Source of the DNA: a virus
Virus record (IMG/VR): IMGVR_UViG_3300020608_000013
Coordinates: 1 to 64,000 of that record
Strand: one strand, 5' to 3'
DNA length: 64,000 bases
The position numbers and the translations under genes are program-made. Below the pieces are notes generated by a model that worked only from the letters and a program-made list of their open reading frames with translations, did no database searches and was not told the DNA's origin. Shown here in pieces: positions 38,461 through 55,059 of the stretch (its first letter is position 1; each line of letters begins with the position of its first letter).

Positions 38461-39738
38461 TCAATCTCCTTTACGCAAATGGAGTAAAAGTAGTAAAATG
38501 GGTATGAAGTAGTATTGTTGCAATTTTGTTAAATTGAATATTTCTTTTGAAAGTAATGCCAGATTATCGATTAAAAGTGATTTATTTTTTAACCCATCAT
38601 GAATGGTTTTCTCGAAAAGTGTTTTAGCGACACCCTGATAAAACTCATCGTTAAACAAATACGGTTTGAAAGACACTAAAGGGTAATATTCGTTAACTTC
38701 GCTTAATAAATTTTCTCCCTCGTATTGCTCTAGAATAACCGAATCTTCAAGCGTATCTTTATCGAACGTAAGGTAGTGGGTGAGACCTATTAACGAACTA
38801 ACATGGTCGGACAACCAATGGCCTGTGTATACTTTACGTTGAGCTACTTTAGCCGTCTGCATACACGCCTCTAAATGCTCATATTCGCGTTTCTCAAGCA
38901 CGTCCCATAGATTAACATAATTTTCATCATCGTCGTTATGACGCACCGCATAGGCGGCTAGATTTGGACGTATCCCTAACGCGATAACAAAATTGTTCAC
39001 CCACGCATCGTAGTACCACGTCGTCACATCCTTGTCGGTGAGGAAAATTGTTTTGTAAATTTTGTTACGGTTATCGTAAAAGCAATTGTGGTAGAAAACT
39101 TGAAGTTTAGCTTGTAGCTCTTCTAGGGTATTGAGTCGACTATACTCCTCTTTAGTCACTAAGGGTAGTTTATTATACTTTAGCCGATCTTTCACATAAT
39201 GGTAAGTTTTATATACCTTACTTTCTAATGCAGCAAGCGTCTCCTTATCTACATCATCGTAAAGTTGAAAACTTATAACGTACAAAGAGCGTTTATCCGC
39301 AGCTAGTTTTTCTGACCCATATACTTGAAAAACACTCTCTTCAACAGAACCTGTGTTTGCTGTGAACATGTCACCAATAGAAGGCACTACACCACTATGC
39401 ACAAAACCAACACCCTTCAACCCTTTAGTGTTCGATTCTTTATCATTTTCATACTCTACCGCATCTTTTAAATAGATGGGGTAGTTTAATATCTTTTCAA
39501 ACGCTTGGTTTATCGAAGATTGGTGGACATCGTAATGGTCGGTAGGCGCGTTATGTGACTCTCGTTGCCTATAGTAGGCGTTGGTCTCCCAGACCTCACC
39601 ATCTATATAAGGTACTGAGCTTAAATAAAGTTCGTCTTGCGAGTGGGTAAAGAGACGATCTGAATCTGTACTTAAGGGCGCATGTTCAGATTTAGGCTCT
39701 AAACGCTTTCGCGGGTTTAGTGTACTTACTATACTCAT
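38461..39738 (-). CDS. Hypothetical tail/baseplate protein, 425 aa
   Basis: Not recognised. Mixed alpha/beta, with several charged helices; the C-terminal 60 residues are leucine-rich and helical (LLIDNLALLSKEIFNLTKLQ, FIPILLLLLHL). Its start lies 47 bases inside the preceding gene, so the two are coupled and overlapping. Context points to a tail role. Confidence 0.65.
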   Translation of the reverse strand: MSIVSTLNPRKRLEPKSEHAPLSTDSDRLFTHSQDELYLSSVPYIDGEVWETNAYYRQRESHNAPTDHYDVHQSSINQAFEKILNYPIYLKDAVEYENDKESNTKGLKGVGFVHSGVVPSIGDMFTANTGSVEESVFQVYGSEKLAADKRSLYVISFQLYDDVDKETLAALESKVYKTYHYVKDRLKYNKLPLVTKEEYSRLNTLEELQAKLQVFYHNCFYDNRNKIYKTIFLTDKDVTTWYYDAWVNNFVIALGIRPNLAAYAVRHNDDDENYVNLWDVLEKREYEHLEACMQTAKVAQRKVYTGHWLSDHVSSLIGLTHYLTFDKDTLEDSVILEQYEGENLLSEVNEYYPLVSFKPYLFNDEFYQGVAKTLFEKTIHDGLKNKSLLIDNLALLSKEIFNLTKLQQYYFIPILLLLLHLRKGD

Positions 39739-41260
39739 TGTTATGTCCTATTGAAATAATGTTAGTCGCCATAACCGTGTACATTTTTAAATCGTCGAGC
39801 GGTAATTTAATTATCAACTCGAATAAAGTTCGTAGAATAGACTCTCTATCCTCTACGCTATACGATTCTATTGTTTTCAAGCGATTAAATTGTGGGTCTT
39901 CAAATAACGTTTGGTTAATATCCTCAAGAATAATTTTAAGCGCGTCTACGTGATTTACGAACCGAAGAAGGTGCTGTCGATCTAGTTTACTAAGGTCTCT
40001 GAGCACACTGAACTTAACACGGTACATACGTCGTAAATCTAAATCCATCGACAGTTTAACATTAAGACAGTTATCGATCTCAATTAAGCGCCCGTCTATG
40101 AGGCGTTCGTTCTCGTAGATAGAGATGTGGAGTAGCGATTGAAACTCTTTTGTGATATACTCACGCTCTACTTCGCTAATGAAATCAATGATGTGTTTAT
40201 TGATGTTCAACACGCCTAGTTCATTCAGATTGAATAGAATGTCGTTCTTATTCGTTATCTCACATAGTGCAATGAAGAGGGGGCGCATATAGGGATACTC
40301 ACCCCGTAATGTAAATTGGTCTGTTTCTGGTAATCTTACACAAGGGAGCGTTTGATTCGGCACGCCCATTTGTGAAAAGTATTTCATCCTAAAACTATCA
40401 GCATCGTAATAGAAAAGATTCTTATTATATTCGCCATCTGTCACCCAATTATAACATTCCTCGGGGAGTAGTTTGTTATACACCATAATAGGGTAGTCAG
40501 CCAACATCTCGAACACGCGACTAAATCGTAAAGTTAATGAAAACTTTAAGTCATAAAAACGGTCTGTTTCATTGACCTCAATTTTCTCAGGTCGTTCCTC
40601 ATCGCTAAACGTTAATAGTCCCATCACATCTCGCTGGATTTCGTTAATACCGATTATTGTACCATTCCCGCTAAGATTTTTGTATAAACTATAACGTCCA
40701 GTAAGGTGTTTATTAAGATACTCGATAAAGTGACCTTGATTAACCAATCTTGATTTATTTTTATAAACATAAAATAGTAAATTTAACAGCCCTACAGGGA
40801 TTTGGTAATAGTAGTTTAACTTTAACATTAGTGTACCCATATCTCTACCCGTGCGGGCTAATAATAGGTCACTAATTTGATTAACTTTATCCCTACTCGT
40901 TGTTTTATAATTAATTTCAAATTCTAACGTAGTGTCGATGTACGATAATCGAGCGTGGACTAGCACATCACTATCTTTAAAGACGTACGGGTAAACATTA
41001 TGGAGGGCTTCAGTGTGGTTAAATGTCTCGACATGGCTTTTATCCACTACATCTACCATCATTATATCGTCGCTAATGTTAAGCTCTTCGTCCTTACTCG
41101 TTACTCGTTTAGCTCTAGTCGCTTGGTTGTGGTGATATTGACGAATAGTTTTAACGCCCGCGATATTCAACAGCTCTTTCAATTGTGTTAAAGTATCGTT
41201 AACTACGGGGTTTATTACAGTACGCTCTGTTTCCTTGACTTGTTCTATTATATTAACCAT
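39692..41260 (-). CDS. Hypothetical tail/baseplate protein, 522 aa
   Basis: Not recognised; long, helical and acidic, no membrane segment. The ATG at 41260 is preceded by AGGAG with 7-base spacing. The open frame continues 18 codons upstream, into the hairpin at 41287-41318, and is rejected. This is the first gene of the tail cluster that reads down to 32025 as an almost unbroken chain of overlapping genes. Confidence 0.65.
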   Translation of the reverse strand: MVNIIEQVKETERTVINPVVNDTLTQLKELLNIAGVKTIRQYHHNQATRAKRVTSKDEELNISDDIMMVDVVDKSHVETFNHTEALHNVYPYVFKDSDVLVHARLSYIDTTLEFEINYKTTSRDKVNQISDLLLARTGRDMGTLMLKLNYYYQIPVGLLNLLFYVYKNKSRLVNQGHFIEYLNKHLTGRYSLYKNLSGNGTIIGINEIQRDVMGLLTFSDEERPEKIEVNETDRFYDLKFSLTLRFSRVFEMLADYPIMVYNKLLPEECYNWVTDGEYNKNLFYYDADSFRMKYFSQMGVPNQTLPCVRLPETDQFTLRGEYPYMRPLFIALCEITNKNDILFNLNELGVLNINKHIIDFISEVEREYITKEFQSLLHISIYENERLIDGRLIEIDNCLNVKLSMDLDLRRMYRVKFSVLRDLSKLDRQHLLRFVNHVDALKIILEDINQTLFEDPQFNRLKTIESYSVEDRESILRTLFELIIKLPLDDLKMYTVMATNIISIGHNNEYSKYTKPAKAFRA

Positions 41261-41286
41261 AGACAATCTCCTAAATAACAAAATAT

Positions 41287-41318
41287 AAACATGCCGAAGA
41301 GAACACCCCGACATGTTT
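41287..41318 (-). terminator. Imperfect hairpin ending the internal-head-protein array
   Basis: AAACATG (41287-41293) pairs with CATGTTT (41312-41318) with one mismatch and a CCG/CGG-like extension. It lies 12 bases after the stop of the 709-aa gene and 27 bases before the tail-cluster start. Weaker than the other hairpins; no T-tract. Confidence 0.45.
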
Positions 41319-41329
41319 AAACGTTACAT

Positions 41330-43459
41330 CTAACAAATATACTGTGCCGTACAAACACTAAGCTGTGTAATTAATAAGTTTCTTAAATTGAGTAACTCTG
41401 TTCTCCCACTATACAACATGTTAAAACGTTCTCGTAAACAACTTGAACGCCCTGATAATCGATCTAGCTTTACTAATTTCTTCAATGTGTTATCATATTG
41501 TTCAACCGATAATGCTAAAAAGGCATTTGTAAATAGAAACTCTTTTAATCGAGCGGCTAAGACTTCACTTGTGTCTGCGGTGGGTTGCTGAACAACCCCT
41601 TGATCGCCACCACGTTTACCACCCATGAAAACACGCGGTACTTCTGTAGTAGGGTACGATACGTCATAACCCTCAAAGTCAATAGAAACGCGCTTGCCAA
41701 AGACGACACTTCTACTATAATAAAAACATCGCCCCTGATCATCAAACCCTGGTAAATTACCATTGATAAGTCGTTTGTTTAATAAAGGCTCGAGTTCTAC
41801 TTTGTATGCATTTTGTAAATCATTAAACCCAGAACGGTTAATGAGTTTTTCATGACGGTCCATGAAGTAACAGATTTCATCTAATAGCTCATTCACTGTA
41901 ACGCCCACCGTCGCCATCGAAGTACACACAACTTCCGTCGCATCAATGGTTGCTAGTACAGTGCTTGTATCAACAATTCCGCCATTACCGAACGCCTTCA
42001 ACATGGTGCTCTCGTCGTAGAAATGATGGGGGTTGTAATTTGAATTAGCTAGCGCATGAAGGCGTGCTAGAATGTCACCGTGTAAATTAAGTTTATCGAC
42101 AGGTTTTATCAAATGGTAGACATTGACTCCACTTTCAAGCGAGGATTCTTCATCCTCATCTTTTTTAAGCGGTATCGCATTCTTTTCTGCCTTCTCTGCA
42201 ACATCCAGAACTTTCTGCAATGCCTCATTTTGTTCATCTTCCTCTGCAAGGTCCTCGTTTTCCATGTAGTTTTTAAGTATCTCAACTTGTTCTGGAAACG
42301 CTTGGGTAGCTTTACTCTCTACACTAGACGTGTCTTTACTTATGCCACGGTAGATGTTTAAAGAATGGCGGACATAAGTGAATAATGCTAACGCGATGTT
42401 GCGTCTTGCCTCAATGACGGCTCTAGTCGCTTTAAGTAACTCTTGTGTATTAACTAGATAGAAGTTAGATACCTCGATAATAACAGTTTCTAGCTCCTTT
42501 GGAAGGTCTAGATTGGCTATGTCGTTACTTGCTTTATTAACCGTATTAACTTCAGCCTTGTGTATTTTCTCAATACGCTTGATATACCCCGACAACTGAG
42601 TTTTAACTTGCTTAACGTAGACCACTACTTGATCAATTACTTTTAAATCGAGTGCAAGAATTTCTAAATTATCTTTCACGCGCACATCGCTTGTTTCGAC
42701 GTAGAATTTATTATTATAGAAAGGGGTGACTACACCACCAAGCTTCTTCTCCGTCTTCACAGTCAGACTACCAATTTTCTTATTCGGGGGTAGTAGTGGT
42801 GTGAAACGTGCTAAGAGACCATCTTTCGGTTGAGTGTTAAACGCATCTTGGTTTTCTTCAAACCAATCATCAAATAGCGTACAGACTCCCAATTCTTCTA
42901 ACGCTTTCTCATCTACGCGCATGGCTGATCCATTACGTTTAAAATCTGCGTTAAACTTCGTGTAGAAGTCGAATGTCTTATCGTGAATAGCTTTAGAAGC
43001 TAGACCTAAATGCATCGCATATTTTCCTAACGTCCGATCATAGCCCATTAAACGCTGTGCGGCATTATTAAATCCATCTTTATTTACCCCCATTTGTGTA
43101 AAAACAGGACCTAACATACGATAAACGAAAGGAGTCGCTTTAGGCGATAATGGTTTTTCCTCAACCTCTCGTCGAATTTTAATCGGAAAGATGTTCATAT
43201 ACTGAGCAACTTGTCCTGCGTAACGATTTAATACTTTTACGGAGGCAAGATTGTCTAACGTAGCACCTGCTTTAGACACTAAGTTCATCAACATTTCTTT
43301 CAGTTTTGAAATCGCTGTATTGATTGCTTTAATTAACTCGATGAGTTTTGACTTAACATTTTCACCCCACCCTGTTTCTAAACTAACAGTTGGTGTATTA
43401 TGGTACATGGTATATTGTGTTTTATAATAGACTAAAGCCTCATTAAGCGTTGTCATCAT
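41330..43459 (-). CDS. Internal head protein precursor (family A), 709 aa
   Basis: Largest member of the array. The leader of 28 residues ends in TVSLE|TG, the S-x-E type of prohead-protease site; the next 60 residues form amphipathic helices (KSKLIELIKAINTAISKLKEMLMNLV). The rest holds charged helices and an acidic patch near 400-440 (EDLAEEDEQNEALQKVL). In phiKZ-like phages such proteins fill the capsid as the inner body and are cut during head maturation. It starts with a doubled ATG after GGAGGATA and overlaps the preceding gene by 17 bases. Last in its module. Confidence 0.65.
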   Translation of the reverse strand: MMTTLNEALVYYKTQYTMYHNTPTVSLETGWGENVKSKLIELIKAINTAISKLKEMLMNLVSKAGATLDNLASVKVLNRYAGQVAQYMNIFPIKIRREVEEKPLSPKATPFVYRMLGPVFTQMGVNKDGFNNAAQRLMGYDRTLGKYAMHLGLASKAIHDKTFDFYTKFNADFKRNGSAMRVDEKALEELGVCTLFDDWFEENQDAFNTQPKDGLLARFTPLLPPNKKIGSLTVKTEKKLGGVVTPFYNNKFYVETSDVRVKDNLEILALDLKVIDQVVVYVKQVKTQLSGYIKRIEKIHKAEVNTVNKASNDIANLDLPKELETVIIEVSNFYLVNTQELLKATRAVIEARRNIALALFTYVRHSLNIYRGISKDTSSVESKATQAFPEQVEILKNYMENEDLAEEDEQNEALQKVLDVAEKAEKNAIPLKKDEDEESSLESGVNVYHLIKPVDKLNLHGDILARLHALANSNYNPHHFYDESTMLKAFGNGGIVDTSTVLATIDATEVVCTSMATVGVTVNELLDEICYFMDRHEKLINRSGFNDLQNAYKVELEPLLNKRLINGNLPGFDDQGRCFYYSRSVVFGKRVSIDFEGYDVSYPTTEVPRVFMGGKRGGDQGVVQQPTADTSEVLAARLKEFLFTNAFLALSVEQYDNTLKKLVKLDRLSGRSSCLRERFNMLYSGRTELLNLRNLLITQLSVCTAQYIC

Positions 43460-44636
43460 TATCCTCCTTTTTTAATGCTTTTTGAACTGAATTAATCGCG
43501 TTGACGGTATCGTCGTGAATTGTCGTGAGTGTCTTAAAATTAGCTAATCTATTCTTAACAATGAACGTGACCTCGTTACTGATCTTAACATGTAAGTCAT
43601 AGAAATTATTAACCAAATCTAATACTAATCGTCCTACTTCAGTATCCGCCATGTCTTCAGGGACTTTCGTCTTCTGCATGGTCTTGATAATCTTCTCTAA
43701 CCCTTTAAACGACTTACTAAACCGATTACTATGTAATTCCAGCGCTCGTTGGTTAGTGGTACTGGTGAAACTTTTTAGTAGATCAAAAACCTGAGTTGAA
43801 GGTGGGTTAAATGCTAAAACATCTTTATCTACTTTGATAGGTAGTTTGAACACCCCAATGTTTGAAAATACAACAGGCTCGCTGTCATAATATTTCGTTT
43901 TTAATGAATGTGTCATTGTGTAACTGTGGAGACTTTCTGTACGAGGTAAAGTCAGCGTTGTGGAAGCCCCCTCACCTCTTTTAAAATTGACCTCACCTGG
44001 TAATGCTAATGTCTTAAAAATGTTTACGACACCCGCATCTTTTGACACACCCTCACGCACACTATTTACATTGCACAACCTTTCAACAGTGCGGTTTAAC
44101 TTATCGACCTCTACACGATATTGCTCAACCAACTTGTATTCTAAATCTTTCAAGAACTCATGTTCATCATAGATCATGCGGACGGTTTTATTAATATCAT
44201 ACCCTTCCTCAGCCATGACTAAACTAAAATACTTGCTCTTTTGAGAAGAAAGGATAATGCCGCCAGGGTCTTTTAGTGTAACGCCATCAATATCACCCCT
44301 TTTCTTATTGATTGCTTCTTCAACAATCTCATTACGCAATACAGTAATATCGATTAATTTATCACTCTTACCACGTAACTCATCTTCAATATTTAAAGGC
44401 TTACCTTCACCCATAATTTCATTCGCCAATAAACGTACTATACTCCCATAGACCTTGATGAATATTTTTAGCACCAGTGAAAGGACACGCGTAAACATTT
44501 CAGCAAACGCATTAGCACCTTTACGAAAGTTGCTTTCGTTACTAACTGTTTGTTGAACGTTAAGTGAGCTAAAACATTCTGTTTGAACGGCGAGTAATTT
44601 ACTACCGATAACAAGGTACTGATCTTCTTTAGTCAC
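43443..44636 (-). CDS. Internal head protein precursor (family B), 397 aa, GTG start
   Basis: Starts at a GTG (44634-44636) with GAGGATA upstream. The leader is 34 residues, longer than in its relatives, and ends in VSNE|SN, an S-x-E site. The helical region after it (ANAFAEMFTRVLSLVLKIFIKVY) is more hydrophobic than in relatives. The central part is charged and helical; several Lys/Glu-rich helices follow. It lies between the 709-aa and 349-aa genes with near-zero gaps, so all three form one module. Confidence 0.6.
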   Translation of the reverse strand: MTKEDQYLVIGSKLLAVQTECFSSLNVQQTVSNESNFRKGANAFAEMFTRVLSLVLKIFIKVYGSIVRLLANEIMGEGKPLNIEDELRGKSDKLIDITVLRNEIVEEAINKKRGDIDGVTLKDPGGIILSSQKSKYFSLVMAEEGYDINKTVRMIYDEHEFLKDLEYKLVEQYRVEVDKLNRTVERLCNVNSVREGVSKDAGVVNIFKTLALPGEVNFKRGEGASTTLTLPRTESLHSYTMTHSLKTKYYDSEPVVFSNIGVFKLPIKVDKDVLAFNPPSTQVFDLLKSFTSTTNQRALELHSNRFSKSFKGLEKIIKTMQKTKVPEDMADTEVGRLVLDLVNNFYDLHVKISNEVTFIVKNRLANFKTLTTIHDDTVNAINSVQKALKKEDNDDNA

Positions 44637-44642
44637 GATACT

Positions 44643-45692
44643 CTATCCTCTTTTTTGTTTCAAATAATATTCCGTCATGACGAATAAATAGTATTCAACA
44701 TGTGCCGCCAACTCTGCCTCAATCTCTAACGTCTTTGTTGAAAACTTAACCATGAACTGTACTTCCTTTGCCACTTGTTTAACTAATGCCCTTGTGAACG
44801 GAATACTACCACGCCACACTTTATTAATTTTCTTACTAAAATCATTAATTAGCGTAAGTTGATCTACACAAGCTTTATAATAACGGCGCAAATCTTGTTG
44901 GTAAAATTTATTACGATCTTGTTGCGTATAGTTTAATAAATAATCAAGCTCATCTGGTTTAGGTACTATAAAATCAGACATCTCTTTTACAGAGGGTCTG
45001 CCCGTTATCTCGACAATATCTAAATCGAGGTAATTGAATGTAAGCCCACCGTAGTCTTTCGATTCCTCTTTAGCAACCATTACTAAGTCAACGTTTTTAT
45101 CTTTAGTCGCCACAGGTAGATAGGCTAACGTATAAAAAGTAATATTCTTATTAACTGCCGTGACTAACGCGTGTGGCTCAACCACCTTAGCAAACGTCTC
45201 ATCAACAACGCTCAGTGTCGTTGACGAGGGTTTACCTCTAGTTAGTGATTCTAATACATCGTAGTAAGCTTCAAGGCGTTGTTGGATGGTATGGAGAACT
45301 GCTTTAGAAACGTTTGCTAAACGCATGTCTGCACGACAAATTGAGATTAAGGGATTTGGACTATCTTCTAACATATAGTAAGCAATCGTCTTATAATACT
45401 CCCCCTCTCTTTTTTCTAGGGTAGGTCGTAAGTCTTCTAGTGGGATAGGTCCTTTTAATGCATCGCGAGCTTCTCTTACATGTTCACCTAAAGGATACCC
45501 AAAGAAAACTTCCTTTTTAAGTTTAAGTTTACGCCGCGTCTCTAGCCGACTAATCGCGTCAAGAACTTTTTCTTTTGCTTGGGCAAAAATATTTAAAAGT
45601 CCCGCACTCTCAAGACTAGCCTCGCCAAAATGCTCATTTGCGACATCTTGGATTAGACTTTGGACAATACGACTTTCTTCATTTATAGACAT
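44643..45692 (-). CDS. Internal head protein precursor (family C), 349 aa
   Basis: The ATG at 45692 has AAGGA upstream; six more codons are open but lack a site. The 28-residue leader ends in GEASLE|S, a clear protease site, followed by an amphipathic helix (AGLLNIFAQAKEKVLDAISRLE). The remainder is basic and helical. It is first in the C-B-A module, behind the hairpin at 45757-45797. Confidence 0.65.
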   Translation of the reverse strand: MSINEESRIVQSLIQDVANEHFGEASLESAGLLNIFAQAKEKVLDAISRLETRRKLKLKKEVFFGYPLGEHVREARDALKGPIPLEDLRPTLEKREGEYYKTIAYYMLEDSPNPLISICRADMRLANVSKAVLHTIQQRLEAYYDVLESLTRGKPSSTTLSVVDETFAKVVEPHALVTAVNKNITFYTLAYLPVATKDKNVDLVMVAKEESKDYGGLTFNYLDLDIVEITGRPSVKEMSDFIVPKPDELDYLLNYTQQDRNKFYQQDLRRYYKACVDQLTLINDFSKKINKVWRGSIPFTRALVKQVAKEVQFMVKFSTKTLEIEAELAAHVEYYLFVMTEYYLKQKRG

Positions 45693-45756
45693 ATAACTAC
45701 GTTCCTTCATTAATTTTAATCAATCTATGAAACATCGCTGAGTAGATCAAGCGATA

Positions 45757-45797
45757 AGGTTAGGTCGTATGGGCGCTATACCCATACGACCTAACCT
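45757..45797 (-). terminator. 17-bp perfect hairpin inside the internal-head array
   Basis: Arms 45757-45773 and 45781-45797 are exact complements around a 7-base loop. It lies 27 bases after the stop of the 373-aa gene and 65 bases before the next start, so it separates two modules. No T-tract on the minus strand. Confidence 0.7.
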
Positions 45798-45823
45798 AAC
45801 ATAAATCTAATTTAAAGTATTAT

Positions 45824-46945
45824 TTAAACACCTAAAGACCTTTTAGACCACAAGTACATTAGGGTTAAGTAAGCTACATTTTGCGAAACCAATTCATTCA
45901 ACACTTTAATTAGCGTCGTCGTTTGTGTTGTGCGATTTGTTATGTACTTCACAGCCTGATGAATCATTGGTAGTTTATCAATTGGCACAGTGTCTTTTAA
46001 ACTAAGCATCTCTTCACGCGAGTGATCTAGGAAACGGTTTGCTGACCGTCTATAACCTTCCCACATTTTCTCCAGCCTGTTCTCTAAGGGTAAGTCTGCA
46101 CACACCTCGCGCATCCCCTCCAAACCACTAGGGGGAGCGACATATAATTTTTCTGGAGTAGCTGGCTTGTCGCTCACCCCTGTATTCTGTATGTGAGGGG
46201 TTTGACAGACCACAGACCAATCGAAAAATACGAAGTGGTCTGTTTTCTCTTTGTACGTGTAGTGTACGCCCATCGGTAAAAGGAGTAAATCGAAACCTGT
46301 CTCGCCTAGATCATCCGTTTCAATAAGACCGTCAAGAGTGTTCTTAAAAGCACTTGCATGACCAGCGTCGTGAAAAACCACCTTTTTCGGATACTTTGAT
46401 CCATTAATTTGTTGCTTCCCATCAGGCTCGTAAGGCCTAGGCGGGTTGCCTTCTGCAATAAGTAAGATATTCTTTTGTAGTACCTCCATGTACGTCTGTT
46501 CCTTTACTATAAAAACATCAATCGCTTTAGCATACGCTTTATGTAGACGATTGAAGTGTTTTGTAATAGTAATTAACGCTTCAGGGTCGTCTTGACTAAT
46601 ATTAAGCGCCTTGAGTACACGCGTATGTTGTTCCACCCATTTTTCGTACCCTATATCAAAATCAAAATATTTGTTTCCCTTAACGTATGCAGTAGCGTAG
46701 TCTGCTTTTATCTCTTTTGGTTTAACTGTCTTTGAAACTAACGCCTGCAATTGCCTGCGTTTCTTACTAAGCCACTCACCGATCTTTTTTAAGAGTTCTT
46801 GCGCCATAACGTTTAACGCACTAAGCATTTTCCCAAACTTACCGCGACTTGATCCCTCATCGCTTTCAAGTCCTGTTAAAAGGATGTCTTGAGTGCCCGC
46901 CAGAATGAGTGTATTAACTTCACGAATATGGTCTTGTTTAGACAT
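45824..46945 (-). CDS. Internal head protein precursor (family D), 373 aa
   Basis: The leader ends in LTGLE|SDEG at residue 27, a G-x-E site, followed by amphipathic helices (GKFGKMLSALNVMAQELLKKIGEWL) and then a lysine-rich stretch. The rest is charged with a proline-rich loop near residues 250-270. It follows the decayed member after a 17-base gap and is last in that module. Confidence 0.6.
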   Translation of the reverse strand: MSKQDHIREVNTLILAGTQDILLTGLESDEGSSRGKFGKMLSALNVMAQELLKKIGEWLSKKRRQLQALVSKTVKPKEIKADYATAYVKGNKYFDFDIGYEKWVEQHTRVLKALNISQDDPEALITITKHFNRLHKAYAKAIDVFIVKEQTYMEVLQKNILLIAEGNPPRPYEPDGKQQINGSKYPKKVVFHDAGHASAFKNTLDGLIETDDLGETGFDLLLLPMGVHYTYKEKTDHFVFFDWSVVCQTPHIQNTGVSDKPATPEKLYVAPPSGLEGMREVCADLPLENRLEKMWEGYRRSANRFLDHSREEMLSLKDTVPIDKLPMIHQAVKYITNRTTQTTTLIKVLNELVSQNVAYLTLMYLWSKRSLGV

Positions 46946-46962
46946 TTTAAATACTTCTTATA

Positions 46963-47907
46963 TTAGTCTAATTGATCTCTTGTATCGCTACTAATGAAAG
47001 CTGTCATATGCCATGCGTAAAGCGCTGCTAAATACGCAAGGTTCTTCTCAGCGTTACTGCTCAACCAAACCGCTATTTTACTCATGCTGGTGCGACGCTT
47101 GCCGATATAAGCCATGATAGCTGTTAAAAAAGCTTGTCCTTCATCATCTATTTTATCACCTAACTCAACAACAGATTTTTCAAACTTCTTAAGTATCTTT
47201 TCGAGTGTATCGACCGAATGGTTTTTCTTTGCGTTTTTTATATCGTAAGCCAAAACGGTTACAGCGCGTGCAAGTGCCTTCATTCCTCTAGGGTCAAGAG
47301 GTTCGTACGAATCGTTTAGCAGGGGTAGGTTAGCTGGTCGACGTGTAATATCGAGGGTTGTGAAGTTATATTTCGCACCTTTAAATATAATTGTTTCAAT
47401 ACCCGACTTTAACGTAGTGGTCATACCATCAACTTCATAGTCTGTCGTGAGCGTATTTCCTTTGCTATGAGCGTCTACTTTAGTATATAAACCAATTCCG
47501 ATAGAAGGGACAATACCATCATTAAACGTTAAGGTATTATCTATGTCGTCACTTAGACCGTGTTCCACTCTTCTATTTAGATTCTCAGGAGTTATACCCT
47601 GCACAATATTAATCGCACCCATACTTACGTTATAAAGGTGCTCTGCCTCACCCTTCATGTATTCCGTATATACCGACACATATCGATTATGGACATCTGC
47701 GGCATAGAGCGCCTTTTCATAGACACCATTTTCAGTACCTTCTATAAGATTAGGACGGTCGTCACTTCTATCTTTACGATTTAAAAGTGCCGTATGATAG
47801 TTCAACACCTCCTCTTCTAAAGTTGTTTTATCTAAAATGATTTTACCTCCATCATATACTTTCTCATACTTAGTATAGAACTCTTCTGTAGCCTTTTTAG
47901 TTACCAT
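46963..47907 (-). CDS. Remaining open frame of a decayed internal head protein, 314 aa
   Basis: The open frame starts at an ATG (47907) in the middle of what would have been a longer protein. It lacks the leader and the first amphipathic helix seen in its relatives; those are encoded just upstream, in the same frame, but interrupted by two stops (listed separately). The remaining sequence is charged and helical like the relatives. Whether it is translated is unknown; the ATG has no good ribosome site. If made, it would lack a protease-cut leader and may not enter the capsid. Confidence 0.5.
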   Translation of the reverse strand: MVTKKATEEFYTKYEKVYDGGKIILDKTTLEEEVLNYHTALLNRKDRSDDRPNLIEGTENGVYEKALYAADVHNRYVSVYTEYMKGEAEHLYNVSMGAINIVQGITPENLNRRVEHGLSDDIDNTLTFNDGIVPSIGIGLYTKVDAHSKGNTLTTDYEVDGMTTTLKSGIETIIFKGAKYNFTTLDITRRPANLPLLNDSYEPLDPRGMKALARAVTVLAYDIKNAKKNHSVDTLEKILKKFEKSVVELGDKIDDEGQAFLTAIMAYIGKRRTSMSKIAVWLSSNAEKNLAYLAALYAWHMTAFISSDTRDQLD

Positions 47908-48126
47908 GGTGAGTATACGACCTATAGCTTGCTCAGCTTTTTCATTAAGCCATTTAAATAGTCGTTTAACAGCATCGTTAATTATTTTACCCAGTTTTTT
48001 GAGTAAACGTATAAACGCATGTTACCCATCGCTAAGAACGCCTTCTGTGCTGGATAACACAATACCTTGTGTTTTCGCTTGTAATAGGGTAGCGATCTCG
48101 TCTGATTTTATTTCTCACATATACAT
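47908..48126 (-). pseudogene. Decayed leader of an internal head protein, two in-frame stops
   Basis: In the same frame as the 314-aa frame, an ATG at 48124-48126 reads M-Y-M-stop, then EIKSDEIATLLQAKTQGIVL, SSTE (protease-type site at codon 28), a TAA (48022-48024), and HAFIRLLKKLGKIIN leading into the 314-aa frame without a frame change. Codon 4 is a TGA (48115-48117) and codon 35 a TAA. The segment matches the leader of the 527-aa relative (SEVALMLSLHTQGTILHSNE), so this is a real leader, not chance. Either the gene is inactivated, or the sequence has errors, or the stops are read through. Confidence 0.65.
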
Positions 48127-48164
48127 AATAATTGTTAAACCTCTTGTTTGGATTCGTAACACCA

Positions 48165-48191
48165 AGACACTTATAGTAATTATAAGTGTCT
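48165..48191 (-). terminator. 11-bp hairpin after the 527-aa gene
   Basis: AGACACTTATA (48165-48175) and TATAAGTGTCT (48181-48191) are exact complements around GTAAT, 36 bases beyond the stop of the gene at 48227. It is the boundary between the G-F module and the decayed member. Confidence 0.65.
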
Positions 48192-48226
48192 CTTTTTATA
48201 AAAAACTGCCTGTATAGTATAAACTA

Positions 48227-49810
48227 TTACACAGTAGGCACTTCATTCTCTATTGTGGTAATAGTATCCTCAATGAACTTATATATTCTAGCCCAATATT
48301 TAATGATGGTTGTCTGGTAAGCCACAATCTCACTTGCAATCTCATTCACTTGTGTAATACGTTTATTGTACCGTGGGGTTGCATCTTGTATTTCCTGTAA
48401 AACAAACACGCCTTCAGGTGTGTTGGGATCAAAATTCTTTTCAATCAATTTTTCAGCAGCTTCTTGTGCTTTAATACTCGCCATATACTCCTCTACCACC
48501 TTCTCAACTTTCTTAGAGGGTTTCTTTACGCCATCGAGCACATCTTCTAACGCTCCACTACCTCTTTTAAAGATAAGTGTAGTGGTAGTTGTGTCGAACA
48601 TTCTTTTTGGACCTATGTACGATCTGGGGTAATGTAGTTCTGGTAAACTCAGCTCATTAAACCTCTTACCACGAATATCATAAAAACCCATACCCTTTGG
48701 CGTAGGGAAATGTTGAATATCTTCAGGTAATAAATACTGTTCTATACCACTATGTACATCGAACGCGTGCGACCAACGTGTGTAACCGTAAGACCGATCA
48801 AGTTTTTCTTTAGACGGAGGTGATTTAACCCATTCTTTAATTACCCCAGTAAAGCGATCAGACGTTCTTTTACCGTAGTCATATATCCCTACTAACATGT
48901 TTTCACTAGCAAGCCAATCTTCTTTAATAGTTTCTGCCAGAAAATCCAACGTTGTGTTACTAGGTGTGATTGCTTTCCCAATATGCGGATTAAATAGACG
49001 TTGTAAATATGCATCGAGGTCTTTTGGTAGGGCGATGTTATCTAAACGATGGTTGTCGCCCTCACGACTATAGGTAGGTGATAACGACCCATCTTTAATC
49101 CCAGATTTAACCTTCACAACCTCTCTTTTATATGCCTCTCTATTAGCTTCATATAAAGCCAGCGTTTCTTCTTGTTTCCGCTTACGTTCAACTAATTCCC
49201 TTTCCTCTTCTTCTTTCTTTTTCTTTTCAGCGACCATCTTCGCTTCCAGCTCTTCCCGTTCTTTATCAAGTCGAGCCTTTTGTTCAGCTAAAGCTCTAGC
49301 TTGACTATCAGTCTCCTGCTCGCTTCCCTCTTCGTCTACTGACACCACTCGCTCCTCAACACCCGCTAGCGCTTTTTCAAGTTGTCTGATCGTGGTGTTT
49401 CGTCTACGGAGAGCGTTTTCCAAATCTTCCACTTCTATACGATGCTCTTCCTTCAGCTTAGCCACATCTGTGCCATGATGTAGTGTCTGTGTTGTAAGCT
49501 CACTTTTGAGACCACTATTAGCCTCTTCTGCTTCCTTCAACTTAGTCTCCAACTTTTTGATTCGAGCCTCTAACATTTGACGTTTATTACTAAAAAGGTT
49601 GTCGGGGAGTTGTTTAAGACGAGCTAGTCCGCGCCCTAACATTTTAAAGAAACTCACCACTTTCTCTCGTAAGTAACTAAAAAACTTTTTAAGTAATTGT
49701 AATAAACGCGAGCCGTCCCCAGAAGCGCTTTCGTTACTATGCAAGATAGTACCTTGCGTGTGTAAGCTAAGCATTAACGCTACTTCACTAACTTGGTTAC
49801 TTCTCATCAT
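48227..49810 (-). CDS. Internal head protein precursor (family F), 527 aa
   Basis: The start is the doubled ATG at 49810 after AAAGGAAATAAAG; the longer open frame reaches into the preceding gene. The leader ends in LHSNE|SASG at residue 27. An amphipathic helix follows (RLLQLLKKFFSYLREKVVSFF), then a long coiled coil of alternating E and K residues from about 60 to 245, then a globular C-terminal half. The coiled coil sets it apart from its relatives and could be the part that assembles the inner body. Confidence 0.65.
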   Translation of the reverse strand: MMRSNQVSEVALMLSLHTQGTILHSNESASGDGSRLLQLLKKFFSYLREKVVSFFKMLGRGLARLKQLPDNLFSNKRQMLEARIKKLETKLKEAEEANSGLKSELTTQTLHHGTDVAKLKEEHRIEVEDLENALRRRNTTIRQLEKALAGVEERVVSVDEEGSEQETDSQARALAEQKARLDKEREELEAKMVAEKKKKEEEERELVERKRKQEETLALYEANREAYKREVVKVKSGIKDGSLSPTYSREGDNHRLDNIALPKDLDAYLQRLFNPHIGKAITPSNTTLDFLAETIKEDWLASENMLVGIYDYGKRTSDRFTGVIKEWVKSPPSKEKLDRSYGYTRWSHAFDVHSGIEQYLLPEDIQHFPTPKGMGFYDIRGKRFNELSLPELHYPRSYIGPKRMFDTTTTTLIFKRGSGALEDVLDGVKKPSKKVEKVVEEYMASIKAQEAAEKLIEKNFDPNTPEGVFVLQEIQDATPRYNKRITQVNEIASEIVAYQTTIIKYWARIYKFIEDTITTIENEVPTV

Positions 49811-51062
49811 CTTTATTTCCTTTTTTGTTTGTAAGGTCACGTATCAATAAATCTATTCCGTCATTATACAACTTACCATTAGCTTCAAATACGCCGTACC
49901 ATACTTTTAAAATAAACCGTTGGTAATTGATCATCTCCTGACAAATGTTCGTCGCACTTAAAAACGCTTTATCAAGTTCAGTACAAGCACGCACCACACA
50001 CTTTAGTAACAACTCGTTACTTGTAGCCTCAATCTTTTTAATAAGCACTTCACGAAACTCAAGGTGCTTCTTAATCGTTTTATCAAGATCACTCATGTCT
50101 ATCTGATATTTAAAATGTACCTCGTCAAGTTTTTCACAAAGTAAATCTACTTCGTCTTGAGGCGTATTATAGACCTTTATTTCAGTATCTAGCCCATCAA
50201 TATTACTCTTCTCTAACTTAAGGAAAGGTAATCCATTACTATCTAGCGTACTTTTTAACGAAACTTGCTGGACAACATCTCCCCCTACAAAAGCTTTAAT
50301 CGCGTAATCTTTATCTTCCGATAATTTCTTAGCATATTTTTTATTTAAATCACGATCGAAGAGTTTATTAGTGAACGTCTCCTTTGTACGACTAAAGGCC
50401 GTGTCGGCTGGTGTCAATTGCGGTGGTTTATCAATCGCTTGTTTAATCACATTGAAAAACGTTGTCATTAAGGTCGCTTGGTAGTCGATCACCACATTAC
50501 TAATATAATTAGATATACCGAACTCTTTTTCTAGTATTGCGCTAAAACCCTTTATACTAACCGCTTTACCGCTGGGTAGACCCCCATTCTTGGCAGCGTA
50601 CAGTGCATTGAGGTAGCGTTTTGTCACCTTCGGGTAGGTAGGGTTAAGGTACGTAACATCTTTCGCTATAACCGCCATCGTCTTTTCAATTTCGTCTAGT
50701 GTTACAGCGTTCTCTTCCTGTTGTTTTTTATAAGTTTCAAGTTTTTCACTAATATCACCCAGCGCTAATGCAGCCTCTCCAACACGCTTCTTACTTTTCT
50801 CCACTGTCTCTTTAGTCAACTTAGTCGCGTTACCTTTCTTCTTAAACAACCCTTTCGGTATTTTCTTTATAGCCTCTATTTTTTTATTAATGTAGTTAAT
50901 ACCACTAAGAACCTTCTCTTTAAAGTATCGTCCCAGTTTCTTAAACATTTCTATAAGACGAGTAAACGTACCCTCATCTTTCTCTAGTGTGTAGAACGCG
51001 AACTCTTTTTCAAGCGCGATCTGACCTAGTTTAATTTGCACTATTTCGTCGTTATTAATCAT
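49797..51062 (-). CDS. Internal head protein precursor (family G), 421 aa
   Basis: The leader may end in FYTLE|KDEG at residue 27, with T instead of S, A or G at the first position; an ALE at 16-18 is an alternative. A lysine-rich amphipathic helix follows (TFTRLIEMFKKLGRYFKEKVL), with basic and helical text after it. ATG at 51062 with TTGGAG upstream. Only about 20 bases separate the start from the hairpin behind it, so a promoter must overlap the hairpin. Confidence 0.6.
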   Translation of the reverse strand: MINNDEIVQIKLGQIALEKEFAFYTLEKDEGTFTRLIEMFKKLGRYFKEKVLSGINYINKKIEAIKKIPKGLFKKKGNATKLTKETVEKSKKRVGEAALALGDISEKLETYKKQQEENAVTLDEIEKTMAVIAKDVTYLNPTYPKVTKRYLNALYAAKNGGLPSGKAVSIKGFSAILEKEFGISNYISNVVIDYQATLMTTFFNVIKQAIDKPPQLTPADTAFSRTKETFTNKLFDRDLNKKYAKKLSEDKDYAIKAFVGGDVVQQVSLKSTLDSNGLPFLKLEKSNIDGLDTEIKVYNTPQDEVDLLCEKLDEVHFKYQIDMSDLDKTIKKHLEFREVLIKKIEATSNELLLKCVVRACTELDKAFLSATNICQEMINYQRFILKVWYGVFEANGKLYNDGIDLLIRDLTNKKGNKDDEK

Positions 51063-51082
51063 AAAAACTCCAAAGTAAAAAA

Positions 51083-51120
51083 GTAAGTACCGTAAGGCAT
51101 ATGTGCCTTACGGTACTTAC
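51083..51120 (-). terminator. 17-bp perfect hairpin with T6 tract
   Basis: Arms 51083-51099 and 51104-51120 are exact complements around TATG, 16 bases after the stop of the 441-aa gene. On the minus strand TTTTTT follows directly, so it fits a rho-independent terminator. It marks the end of the K-J-I-H module. Confidence 0.8.
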
Positions 51121-51136
51121 CATAATAAAAGAAAGA

Positions 51137-52462
51137 CTATTTATCGTCTTTATCAGAGCTACCGCTTTTATCTGATTCGTATTTCTTCAAACTACCGTTA
51201 ACATAATCTAACGCGCCGTAAACTGCGGTTGTACTTAAACCAGCCGCATTACGCGTATAGTTCGCATAGGCTTGCGATGCGTCGTTAACCATATTCTTAA
51301 GCTCTTTAGTTGCTTTAGAATTATCGCCTGATTCTTTAACCAGTTGTTTCAAAAGCTCTTGTGCTTTCTTACTAAAGTTCTTCAAGTCTCTAGAATTACG
51401 CTCGTAACTTTTGATTGCTTTAGTTACGCTTTCTGCTGATGATAAAATACCATTCATATCAGATGTTGATAAAATGTCAAGCGCATCACCTTTAGGCGTA
51501 ATAGCTTCATCTGCTTTAGTATCCACTACAACAATACCTTTAGTACGACGAGACTCTTCCCCAACACTATAAGACATATATACCTTAGTGCCGTTTACTA
51601 ACGTTTCTGTCGCTTGTGTTTTATAAAGTAGATTGTTATCGTCTTTACCAAGTTTACTTTCTTTCATACCTTTAAACTTAGCATTACTGAAGATTTTAGC
51701 GATGGCGATTTCTAAATTAGCCATGTGTCGGTTATTTACACTCTTACTAATTTCATCATCTAACTTCTTAATGACATCGTTAAAAACTTTCTTAAACGCA
51801 TCGGCGTTATCCAACAAGTCTTTATGCTCGCTTAAGACATCTTTAACTGCTTGCGCTGACAGTTTTTTAGATTTAGTACTAAATGCCTTTTCAATCGTTT
51901 TACTCTTGAATTCAGCATCTTTCTTAACCTTTTTCGCTTTCTTTACTTTACCTTTTAAAGAATTAATCGCACCTGTCATGCGACCATTTTGTGTGAAGAC
52001 TTTAGTAAGCGCTTCATTAACCATTTCCCATAGTTTAGCAAGAGCTGCCGCTACCGATTTACTAATACCTTCGTTAGAATCTTCTAATGAAGCGATGGCT
52101 GTCTTAGTCTCTTCTAAACGACTATTAAAGCGACCATAATCTTCTAGACCGATCGTTTCTCGCAAATCCGAGCGATCGATATGATCATAAAGTGTCTCAC
52201 AACAAGCGACCATGAAACGTGCTTCAGTGTCTGTCATTCCACCATCATCTAACGTGAGACGAGCACTAGCAAGAACAGATTCAAGCGCTGTCAATGTAAC
52301 AACATTCTTATCAATATCATCAGCTAACAGTTCGCAATCGTCGAAATCTGACTCTAGACTCCATTGCTCTAAACCTGTATCGTCAAAATCAGCGTCAGGT
52401 ACTACTGGGTTTGTGTATGAATTCTCTAGTGCGAAAGATGCAACATTTAAAAAGTGGCTCAT
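51137..52462 (-). CDS. Internal head protein precursor (family H), 441 aa
   Basis: Carries several S/A-x-E motifs: FALE at 13, WSLE near 37, TALE near 61 and IASLE|DSNEG at 127. An amphipathic helix follows the last (SKSVAAALAKLWEMVNEALTKVF), as in the relatives after their cut sites, so the mature protein probably begins near residue 128. The acidic first 125 residues would be a much longer propeptide than in relatives. Lysine-rich helices follow. ATG at 52462 with AGAGGT upstream. Confidence 0.65.
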   Translation of the reverse strand: MSHFLNVASFALENSYTNPVVPDADFDDTGLEQWSLESDFDDCELLADDIDKNVVTLTALESVLASARLTLDDGGMTDTEARFMVACCETLYDHIDRSDLRETIGLEDYGRFNSRLEETKTAIASLEDSNEGISKSVAAALAKLWEMVNEALTKVFTQNGRMTGAINSLKGKVKKAKKVKKDAEFKSKTIEKAFSTKSKKLSAQAVKDVLSEHKDLLDNADAFKKVFNDVIKKLDDEISKSVNNRHMANLEIAIAKIFSNAKFKGMKESKLGKDDNNLLYKTQATETLVNGTKVYMSYSVGEESRRTKGIVVVDTKADEAITPKGDALDILSTSDMNGILSSAESVTKAIKSYERNSRDLKNFSKKAQELLKQLVKESGDNSKATKELKNMVNDASQAYANYTRNAAGLSTTAVYGALDYVNGSLKKYESDKSGSSDKDDK

Positions 52463-52505
52463 AGATACCTCTTTAGGGGGTTAGTATAAAAATTAAATCG
52501 AATTG

Positions 52506-52967
52506 TCAATGTATGACTCTCAATACATGGAGTAAATACATCAACGATTGTTCGGAGTCTGTTAATCGCTTTAACATAAATTTAGTTGTGAGTTCAACAG
52601 ACAGTTTAGGCGTGAGCGGTGTTTTGCGGTAACTTGAAAAATCACCTTCTGCACGCATGAGAACGCTTTTTAATAGAAGGGGATTGTGGTCACACGACCC
52701 CACCATAATACGTTTAATAAACTCACTCACAAAGAGATTGTGAGTATTCGTCCAGTGTTGTGAATGGTTTTGTAACATAACCCATTTTGTCAACGATGGT
52801 CCGAAAGTGAAGAGTGCATGATCAACTAATTCATCTAAGTCCTCAAATCGCCACCCGTTAGACACGCTCCTACTCTCCCAAAACCGTTCAAACGCTAACG
52901 CATGTTTTTCACAATTAGCAGAATCATTAGGTGTTACGAAACCACTATCGAGCATGGTAAAAGGCAT
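52506..52967 (-). CDS. Hypothetical protein inside the internal-head array, 153 aa
   Basis: Not recognised and unlike its neighbours: no leader motif, no lysine-rich helix. The ATG at 52967 follows a strong GGAGGG and lies 23 bases inside the preceding gene. It could be a chaperone for a head protein or a diverged remnant. Confidence 0.6.
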   Translation of the reverse strand: MPFTMLDSGFVTPNDSANCEKHALAFERFWESRSVSNGWRFEDLDELVDHALFTFGPSLTKWVMLQNHSQHWTNTHNLFVSEFIKRIMVGSCDHNPLLLKSVLMRAEGDFSSYRKTPLTPKLSVELTTKFMLKRLTDSEQSLMYLLHVLRVIH

Positions 52968-53955
52968 CACACCCTCCTTTACAAACATAAGGTCGCATCG
53001 CTAATATTTCGTTAACACTTACACTATTCGTACTGTATGCGCTTTCAAGACTACTACGATCTAAACCTACCTTTTCTTCTTCTTGTTTTATTTTTTGTTC
53101 GTAACGATCTACATCAGCCTGTAGGTTATCGATAGTTGATGCTAGTTTAGGATTATGCTCACCGTCGTTAATATTCTTTAAATGAAGTAATCTAAACTCC
53201 GCCGACGCTTTACGCGCTTTCATAGCCTCGTACCGTGCGTTATCAGCTACCGCGTTATTCAACCGAATATAGAAGATTAGACTATGAACAAAACCAACGT
53301 ACCGTTCAGGTAAGAAAGGGTCAATGTGTCCTGCTACCATTGTTTTAATGGTCGACTCATTACGTTCATTAATCTTGACTAACGGTATCTCATTCCAACG
53401 TTTCTCAAAGTCATCTAACGGGACACTGTAACCTTTAACCAACATACCAAAAGTTGTGACATGGCGATTCAAATAAGCTACCGTTATTTTTGGTATGTTA
53501 TCAACACCATCACTACCTTCAGCACTCAATAACTTAATCTCTCGATCGTAGATGAAATTGAGTAAATCCATACTGAACTGACTAATGAAAACACAATGCT
53601 CTACAAGACGTATTGTCATGATTTCCTTTACATTGGCTTCTTTCGTTACAAGATCATCCGTTACTAAATCATCAAAGTTACGATCGATGTATTTAACCAC
53701 TTCGCGTATCTTCAACAATTGACGGTATAGGGAAACATGTAAAGGAGCATTCTTTACAGGTATGTAATTAGAGAGTAGTCGTTTAACACGTATTAAATCG
53801 TTTGATTTATAGGTGATTAGATTACTTGACGATAGTGTTTTGTAGGAAGGTAAAACAATCTTGTCAAACTCTGTTACTACTTTCTCGAACTCACCAAAAA
53901 CCTCACCTTTATTTAATACAGGTAGTAAACGCTTGATGTAGTTTACAATACTCAT
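52945..53955 (-). CDS. Internal head protein candidate with C-terminal cut motif, 336 aa
   Basis: It starts directly with a helix like those that follow the leader in relatives (IVNYIKRLLPVLNKGEVFGEF) and has no N-terminal S-x-E leader. Instead SSLE|SAYST lies near residue 304, leaving a 32-residue C-terminal tail containing SVSVNEILAMRPYV. A coiled coil precedes it (about 265-300). ATG at 53955 with AAAGGAG upstream. If the motif is used, this is a head protein with a removable C-terminal tail. Confidence 0.6.
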   Translation of the reverse strand: MSIVNYIKRLLPVLNKGEVFGEFEKVVTEFDKIVLPSYKTLSSSNLITYKSNDLIRVKRLLSNYIPVKNAPLHVSLYRQLLKIREVVKYIDRNFDDLVTDDLVTKEANVKEIMTIRLVEHCVFISQFSMDLLNFIYDREIKLLSAEGSDGVDNIPKITVAYLNRHVTTFGMLVKGYSVPLDDFEKRWNEIPLVKINERNESTIKTMVAGHIDPFLPERYVGFVHSLIFYIRLNNAVADNARYEAMKARKASAEFRLLHLKNINDGEHNPKLASTIDNLQADVDRYEQKIKQEEEKVGLDRSSLESAYSTNSVSVNEILAMRPYVCKGGCDAFYHAR

Positions 53956-53970
53956 CTTTTCTCCTTTCGA

Positions 53971-55059
53971 TTATATTAACGATCCACCAATATTCTTCTG
54001 TTCGAGAAGATCAAGAATATTTGGATTCTTTTTTGTTTTCTTCAACTCTTTCCATGTTACTGTCGCACCAACATCATCACCTTTCAAGTACACAGTAATG
54101 TTCTCCCAATCACGATCGACAATAATAATCATCATCGCATAAGAATCTTGAAACACGCGATCGCGTATACTCTGTACGGTTAGTGGACCACCTAATTCAA
54201 TTTCAGCGTTCTTAGCTGTAGTCTCATCGATAATATAAACATTCGAGTGAGTGTTCAACGAAATGTTTTGAGAGATCGCACCTGCTTTCTTATTGGTCGT
54301 CGCACGCTTAACGATTTTTCGATAAATACCTTTATCATCAAGCATCATCAACCGCTTTTCTTTCTCAATACTATCTTGCCAGAAAATAAAATCTTTAATC
54401 CAACGACGTTCACCATTCCATGACTTACGGAAAAGTTCTGAAAAACTAGGGCGATGCGTCTGCTTCGATAGAATAGCTGTGGAGAGTTCGTCTTCTATAA
54501 TATTCACATAGAGACGTGCGTTGACTGTTACTGTGGCGGTCTCTTTACCTGCACCAATAGTGATCTCCATACGTTTTCCGACAGATGCGCTCGCTTCCTT
54601 TGGTGTTACGTCTTTAATCGAATAATTCTCAACATCTTCAAGTGAGGGAAGTTGGTGGTGATAATTTTCTCGATTGTTAAAAACATGGTCTGCTTTAGAC
54701 TCTAAAGATAAGAAAGCATCGCTTAGCTTACGGTTAGGGTTGAACTTATCAAGTAATTTAATAACCCGCATGCCATTCACTCTAGCGCCATAAAGTGATA
54801 CTGCTTGACAATAACGTTCTGCAAAAACAGTTAGTGCGAAAGAAGTGATGTCGGGTAGGTTGTCTAGTACCGAACACGTTTTACTAACAATACAGATTGG
54901 ACTTAAGGTAGCCACACCTAGCGCATCTGTTAAAGAACTACCGTGTATTGCTTTATCTGCGCTAATTAAGCCAGTAGCGATGGTTTTTAAATTGTTTAGA
55001 AGTCCCGTAACTTCACCACTCTCTAATGAAAATGTTGTATATGTTTGATCTTTAACCAT
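53971..55059 (-). CDS. Internal head protein precursor (family K), 362 aa
   Basis: Several candidate sites: TFSLE|SGE at residue 13, FLSLE|SKAD near 120 and LPSLE|DVEN near 138. The cut position of the mature form is not certain. The first 110 residues are helical and rather hydrophobic; the C-terminal two-thirds are mixed alpha/beta, unlike the helical relatives. It is first in the array and starts 25 bases from the divergent gene at 55085. No strong ribosome site before its ATG. Confidence 0.6.
   Translation of the reverse strand: MVKDQTYTTFSLESGEVTGLLNNLKTIATGLISADKAIHGSSLTDALGVATLSPICIVSKTCSVLDNLPDITSFALTVFAERYCQAVSLYGARVNGMRVIKLLDKFNPNRKLSDAFLSLESKADHVFNNRENYHHQLPSLEDVENYSIKDVTPKEASASVGKRMEITIGAGKETATVTVNARLYVNIIEDELSTAILSKQTHRPSFSELFRKSWNGERRWIKDFIFWQDSIEKEKRLMMLDDKGIYRKIVKRATTNKKAGAISQNISLNTHSNVYIIDETTAKNAEIELGGPLTVQSIRDRVFQDSYAMMIIIVDRDWENITVYLKGDDVGATVTWKELKKTKKNPNILDLLEQKNIGGSLI

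Follow-up and report, generated by a model that had tools for sequence, protein, structure and literature searches.

We assign the gene array described here to the inner-body, or ejection-protein, locus of a giant phage. It consists of one canonical protein of family PF12699 together with six intact paralogues and one broken one, and we put the probability of this reading at about 0.84. Judged by its sequence, the source phage is a phiKZ-related giant phage, and the array is a phiKZ-type internal-protein locus of a known kind, here expanded, very divergent and furnished with unusually short leaders. The window, that is, the whole 64,000-nucleotide stretch of DNA analysed, corresponds to positions 1-64000 of a virus record of 212,020 bp. 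The assignment to the phiKZ type comes from PHROG profiles, which identified the major head protein (25470-27749), a DnaB-like helicase, a polymerase and several phiKZ-type virion families. The major head protein is at most about 29% identical to those of known phages. No close relatives were found in the viral and genome contig collections with gp89, gp87, A and the major head protein as single queries, the alignment of D-G being too divergent to serve as a query. A tblastn search of 50,697 phage records with gene A and the PF12699 internal protein (IP) returned no matches.

All seven units of the array, A to G, were found where the original prediction had placed them, on the minus strand. 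The predicted range extends to 55059 and also takes in four genes that lack the array leader, namely the PF12699 protein and the homologues of gp91, gp90 and gp89. The units and their flanking genes are as follows.

39692-41314, minus strand: phiKZ gp98-type gene at the border of the slot (phrog_3289 and synteny).
41330-43459, minus strand: gene A, 709 aa; its leader MMTTLNEALVYYKTQYTMYHNTPTVSLE spans 43459-43376, with a cut predicted after E28.
43443-44636, minus strand: gene B, 397 aa with a GTG start codon; S-N-E at residue 34, leader at 44636-44535; evidence from its motif, its position and the amphipathic helix after the motif, family homology not being detected.
44643-45692, minus strand: gene C, 349 aa when read from its second ATG, the preferred start; S-L-E at residue 28, leader at 45692-45609; evidence from motif, position and helix, family homology not being detected.
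45824-46945, minus strand: gene D, 373 aa; G-L-E at residue 27, leader 46945-46865; placed by a leader alignable with those of F and of remnant E (E'), and by weak C-terminal matches to E and F.
46963-48126, minus strand: remnant E; broken leader frame 48126-48025, open body 46963-47907 of 314 aa.
48227-49810, minus strand: gene F, 527 aa from the ATG at 49810; S-N-E at residue 27, leader 49810-49730; placed as a homologue of G and by matches to family profiles at both ends.
49797-51062, minus strand: gene G, 421 aa; T-L-E at residue 27, leader 51062-50982; placed as a homologue of F and by a low-confidence model with a helix at 4-19, a loop with the site, and a helix at 32-66.
51137-52462, minus strand: phiKZ_IP homologue (PF12699), 441 aa, the neighbour of the array on the G side; short leader MSHFLNVASFALE (E13), maturation motif A-S-L-E at E127.
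52506-52988, minus strand: gene in the phiKZ gp91 position (synteny).
52945-53955, minus strand: phiKZ gp90-type head protein (phrog_3187 and synteny).
53971-55059, minus strand: head protein of the phiKZ gp89 type (phrog_3239), which has an S-L-E of its own at residue 13.

The starts of C (second ATG, 45692) and F (ATG 49810, behind GGAAATAAAG) were chosen for their better ribosome-binding sites. Gene F contains a long coiled-coil-like insert. Gene A is far longer than its neighbours, and its second half (from about residue 370) holds a second S-L-E near residue 440.

In phiKZ, genes 87 and 88 lie on one strand and are followed by 89, 90, 91, the internal head proteins 92-97, and 98-101. The order in the window is the same, with 87-88 (divergent), 89, 90, 91, the array, 98, 99, 100 and 101, and the array sits exactly in the slot of the phiKZ inner-body genes 92-97, between the gp89-91 and gp98-101 homologues. 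PCH45 and LucasX share this gene order, as do most of the 39 further giant-phage loci recovered in two profile scans of IMG/VR. Those of the further loci that could be read far enough mostly have 2-6 long (internal-head-protein) genes in the slot. Several loci repeat one phage-specific leader on their paralogues, among them L018 (MLRRIYGYRAGIEELMEEVN twice and a near copy), L015 (MAKL[YF]...) and L023 (..W[LI]..KE or similar). At L018:13409-18895, three of four paralogues have a nearly letter-identical leader, M-[SL]-R-R-I-Y-G-Y-R-A-G-[LI]-E, on diverged bodies. A short-leader look-alike of the internal proteins occupies this slot in a phage contig of 203 kb (L034:1364-2392), with A-S-L-E and then S-Q-E-G before a basic helix.

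The IP scores 68.5 bits against PF12699, which has a curated cut-off of 27, and also matches PHROG 2497, "internal head protein". None of A-G exceeds the PF12699 cut-off. Pfam did not match A, B, C, D or G at all, PHROGs linked none of these five significantly to a head protein family, and across A-G the two collections gave nothing significant except coiled-coil noise. We built two profiles from the family. The maturation-site profile, made from 19 family segments and with a consensus of roughly [SA]-x-E-G-[IL]-x-x-x-[IL]-K, ranked the IP first in this genome (1e-19) and A second (E 0.001-0.004, residues 25-75). Gene A is in register with this profile, its E28 falling on the cleavage Glu of the family. 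F and the E' frame came next among the best matches, the register of F being approximate, and the best match among reversed proteins was 0.35. The mature-region profile, made from 70 mature regions of the family, matched the E body at E 2e-5, and A and F weakly but collinearly. With the IP of the window left out of this profile, the E body scored 3.6e-4, compared with 0.0086 for the best match in 20 shuffled proteomes, and A dropped to E 0.03, within the range of the best matches of the shuffled proteomes.

Among the units themselves, F and G are homologous (phmmer about 1e-9), and the C-termini of D, E, F and G have weak collinear matches to each other. B and C had no detectable homology to the internal-head-protein family or to anything else searched. 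Alignment of the array to the family by hhalign gave very low probabilities, two of the best alignments falling at the cleavage site, and a structure model of G from a 4-sequence alignment reached a pLDDT of 43. The original prediction held that the proteins differ strongly beyond the leader. This is true of their pairwise identity (about 13-28%), but F and G are homologous, and the E body, A and F match the internal-head-protein family. For these reasons the bodies appear to be mostly fast-diverging paralogues and not arbitrary cargo. The E body is a diverged paralogue of the internal-head-protein family, as A, F, G and D probably are, D and G being connected to the family only by way of F and E.

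Remnant E retains a leader (EIKSDEIATLLQAKTQGIVLSSTE, 48114-48043) that is bracketed in frame by a TGA (48117-48115) on one side and a TAA (48024-48022) on the other. The TGA falls at the second to fourth codon of the leader frame and the TAA seven codons after the leader. The open body starts only at 47907, the first usable downstream start, which has no ribosome-binding site, and it carries no leader, cleavage site or helix. Both stops are within the leader region and none is in the 314-codon body, a distribution suggestive, though not proof, of a body that is still kept. The E body is the best match in the array to the internal-head-protein family, and it represents a natural case of leader loss.

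The T4-type protease profile PF03420 had no match in this phage, and the phiKZ gp175 sequence was therefore taken as the query. A homologue of this prohead protease was found at 119417-120229 of the record (E 3e-19, 31% identity), adjoining a gp176 homologue. The regions of His81 and Ser162 are aligned and conserved, which suggests that these residues are catalytic. Enzymes of the gp175 family cleave after S/A/G(/T)-x-E (PMC5694885, PMC9026906); the sites are S/A/G-x-E in phiKZ and S/A/G/T-x-E in 201phi2-1, and each of these phages has 19 processed head proteins (PMC5694885). SPN3US gp53 is cut in vivo at (E)GWKETLKDLFER, just before GWKETLKDLFER, and this site fits S/A/G/T-x-E (PMC10052503). 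The gene A site TGWGENVKSKL lines up at the motif that the gp53 cut fits. The protease homologue itself has S-M-E and S-L-E in its C-terminal part, as expected for a self-cleaved C-terminal propeptide.

The proposal that A-G are internal head proteins, putatively cut by the prohead protease, is thus well supported by the gp92-97 slot, the PF12699 neighbour, the gp175-type protease and the register of A in the family profile. Our best reading is that A-G would be internal head proteins that are targeted to the head and matured by removal of the leader.

The leader was predicted to end in S/A/G/T-x-E at residue 27 or 28 in most units and at 34 in one. With the better starts, the motif does end at residue 28 in A, 34 in B, 28 in C, and 27 in D, F and G. 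It ends at residues 25-34 in six of six intact array proteins compared with 29 of the 186 proteins encoded elsewhere in the genome (P about 1.4e-5, a figure calculated post hoc). The amphipathic helix said to follow the motif was also recovered. Beyond the motif, the chain is amphipathic with a net basic charge, and it has a moment in G above that of every background protein and in the other five intact genes within the top 3-11%. The motif followed immediately by such a helix is present in the six intact genes and in the E' leader.

Conservation of the leader sequence itself, originally ascribed to all seven units, proved to be confined to part of the array. With the three motif columns left out, the residues upstream of the motif are alike beyond chance in D, E', F and G (two nulls, P<2e-4), but not in A, B and C (P 0.11 and 0.20). 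All seven leaders tested jointly, again without the motif columns, gave P<1e-3, with the signal carried by D, E' and F. A global MAFFT alignment of all seven units was unreliable outside D-G. The leader sequence is conserved only in D, E' and F, and weakly in G; A, B and C agree with them in nothing but the motif and where it stands. A different leader, 13 residues long and ending in A-L-E or S-L-E, is found on the IP and the gp89 homologue, much as on phiKZ gp93 (S-L-E at 13) and gp97.

This partial conservation bears on whether the leader does anything beyond being removed. The motif could be a cleavage site only, with no role in targeting, and the proteins could be packaged through the mature body or the amphipathic helix. 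In favour of this, motif, spacing and helix are conserved across the seven units while the leader sequence is not, and in SPN3US about 80% of the head proteins are packaged uncleaved (PMC10052503). We regard it as unlikely, since the leaders of D, E', F and G are conserved upstream of the motif, and near-identical leaders occur on diverged paralogues in L018, L015 and L023, as published likewise for SPN3US gp53/gp54. Targeting by leaders of this kind is proven in T4 and proposed for giant phages (PMC5694885, PMC9026906), and by analogy it is plausible that the array leader targets proteins into the head as the T4 capsid targeting sequence (CTS) does.

The original prediction went further, to a modular system in which any body joined to the leader could be packed. 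The leader would then be a self-sufficient tag and the bodies unrelated proteins that had been captured. The extreme divergence of the bodies, the lack of any match for B and C and the leader common to D, E' and F are in keeping with such a system, and in T4 foreign proteins fused to the CTS are packed (PMC9026906). This idea is not supported, because the majority of the bodies appear to be related and the leader is confined to the array. A leader profile run against 3,681 open frames from the 212-kb genome, a check that the original prediction had advised, turned up no additional copy; the leaders of A, B and C (three of the seven) are not alike beyond the motif, and in related phages the bodies in the slot are usually more alike than the leaders. 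We consider open modular cargo improbable. We give equally little credence to an evolutionary version in which the long inner-body propeptide has shrunk in this lineage to an independent tag some 27 residues long, B and C are captured non-homologues, the array is a growing effector cassette, and E, having no tag, goes unpackaged.

The length of the leader is itself unusual for the family. Among 92 profile hits from other phages, the position of the maturation site ranges over residues 65-531 (median 127) and is never near 27, whereas that of gene A is at residue 28. The array leaders therefore look like propeptides without the long middle part, and not like something added to a mature protein. 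Short propeptides can work, as those of SPN3US gp45 and gp225 are 20 and 24 residues long (PMC10052503).

The array proteins could be core components, and as scaffold or core proteins they might be destroyed instead of retained. Most members have a single N-terminal site, however, and the phiKZ and SPN3US homologues persist as abundant mature virion proteins, which makes this alternative very improbable. It is scarcely credible that ordinary proteins without an assigned role carry so loose a motif by chance, as 16% of the other proteins do, when all six intact genes are adjacent and in the inner-body slot and A is in register with the family site.

If A-G are internal head proteins as we propose, each precursor would be made late, and its N-terminal propeptide, here cut down to about 27 residues, would dock it to the prohead core during assembly. 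Once the prohead is assembled, the gp175-type serine protease would cut after S/A/G/T-x-E, within a loop that joins the leader to the amphipathic basic helix. The leader would then exit the head and the mature helical protein would stay with the DNA, probably to be ejected into the host. We infer packaging, cleavage, association with DNA and ejection for the array proteins, the last as a probable step.

The closest known system is phiKZ, in which gp92-gp97 (with gp89, gp90 and gp162; PF12699) are tandem paralogues in the same gp91-gp98 slot. The phiKZ inner-body proteins have S/A/G-x-E before an amphipathic helix and a phage-encoded gp175 protease, as here; gp93 and gp162 are present as chains in PDB entry 8y6v. 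The present locus differs in its seven extra, far more divergent units, which are below the Pfam cut-off, and in a predicted propeptide of about 27 residues compared with 65 or more in phiKZ. Paralogue family A of SPN3US (gp53, gp54) resembles the array in having a common N-terminal stretch on diverged bodies and the same cut-site motif as gene A. These two proteins have 15 identical N-terminal residues and 34% identity overall, and the propeptide is removed by gp245 (PMC5694885, PMC10052503). Unlike the array, the SPN3US family comprises just two proteins, whose propeptides of 125 and 137 residues are cut several times, and its motif is A-x-E only.

The T4 proteins IPI-III and Alt also combine a short leader with diverged bodies, and they are ejected. 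Their leaders, of 10-19 residues in the IPs and 7 in Alt, are cut after Glu by the gp21-type protease (PMC9026906). The T4 site is L/I-x-E, however, the array leader is longer and its targeting predicted, and no sequence relation between the two was seen. The uncultured giant phages (L018, L023, L015, L034) have the same slot and a phage-specific leader common to several proteins, M-L-R-R-I-Y-G-Y-R-A-G-I-E in L018, but their bodies are still recognisably alike and the cleavage site is far from the N-terminus in nearly all.

With this locus the giant-phage inner-body family gains one of its largest and most divergent arrays, and the known picture of head maturation is left unchanged. With such short propeptides, targeting could be probed on some 27 residues rather than on over 100. 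Elsewhere in the record, at 188178-205826 (L007, L008), there is an array of 15 similar minus-strand genes, mostly of 245-325 aa with one of 144 aa, which has weak leucine-rich-repeat matches only; more small paralogue clusters are present at 159-210 kb.
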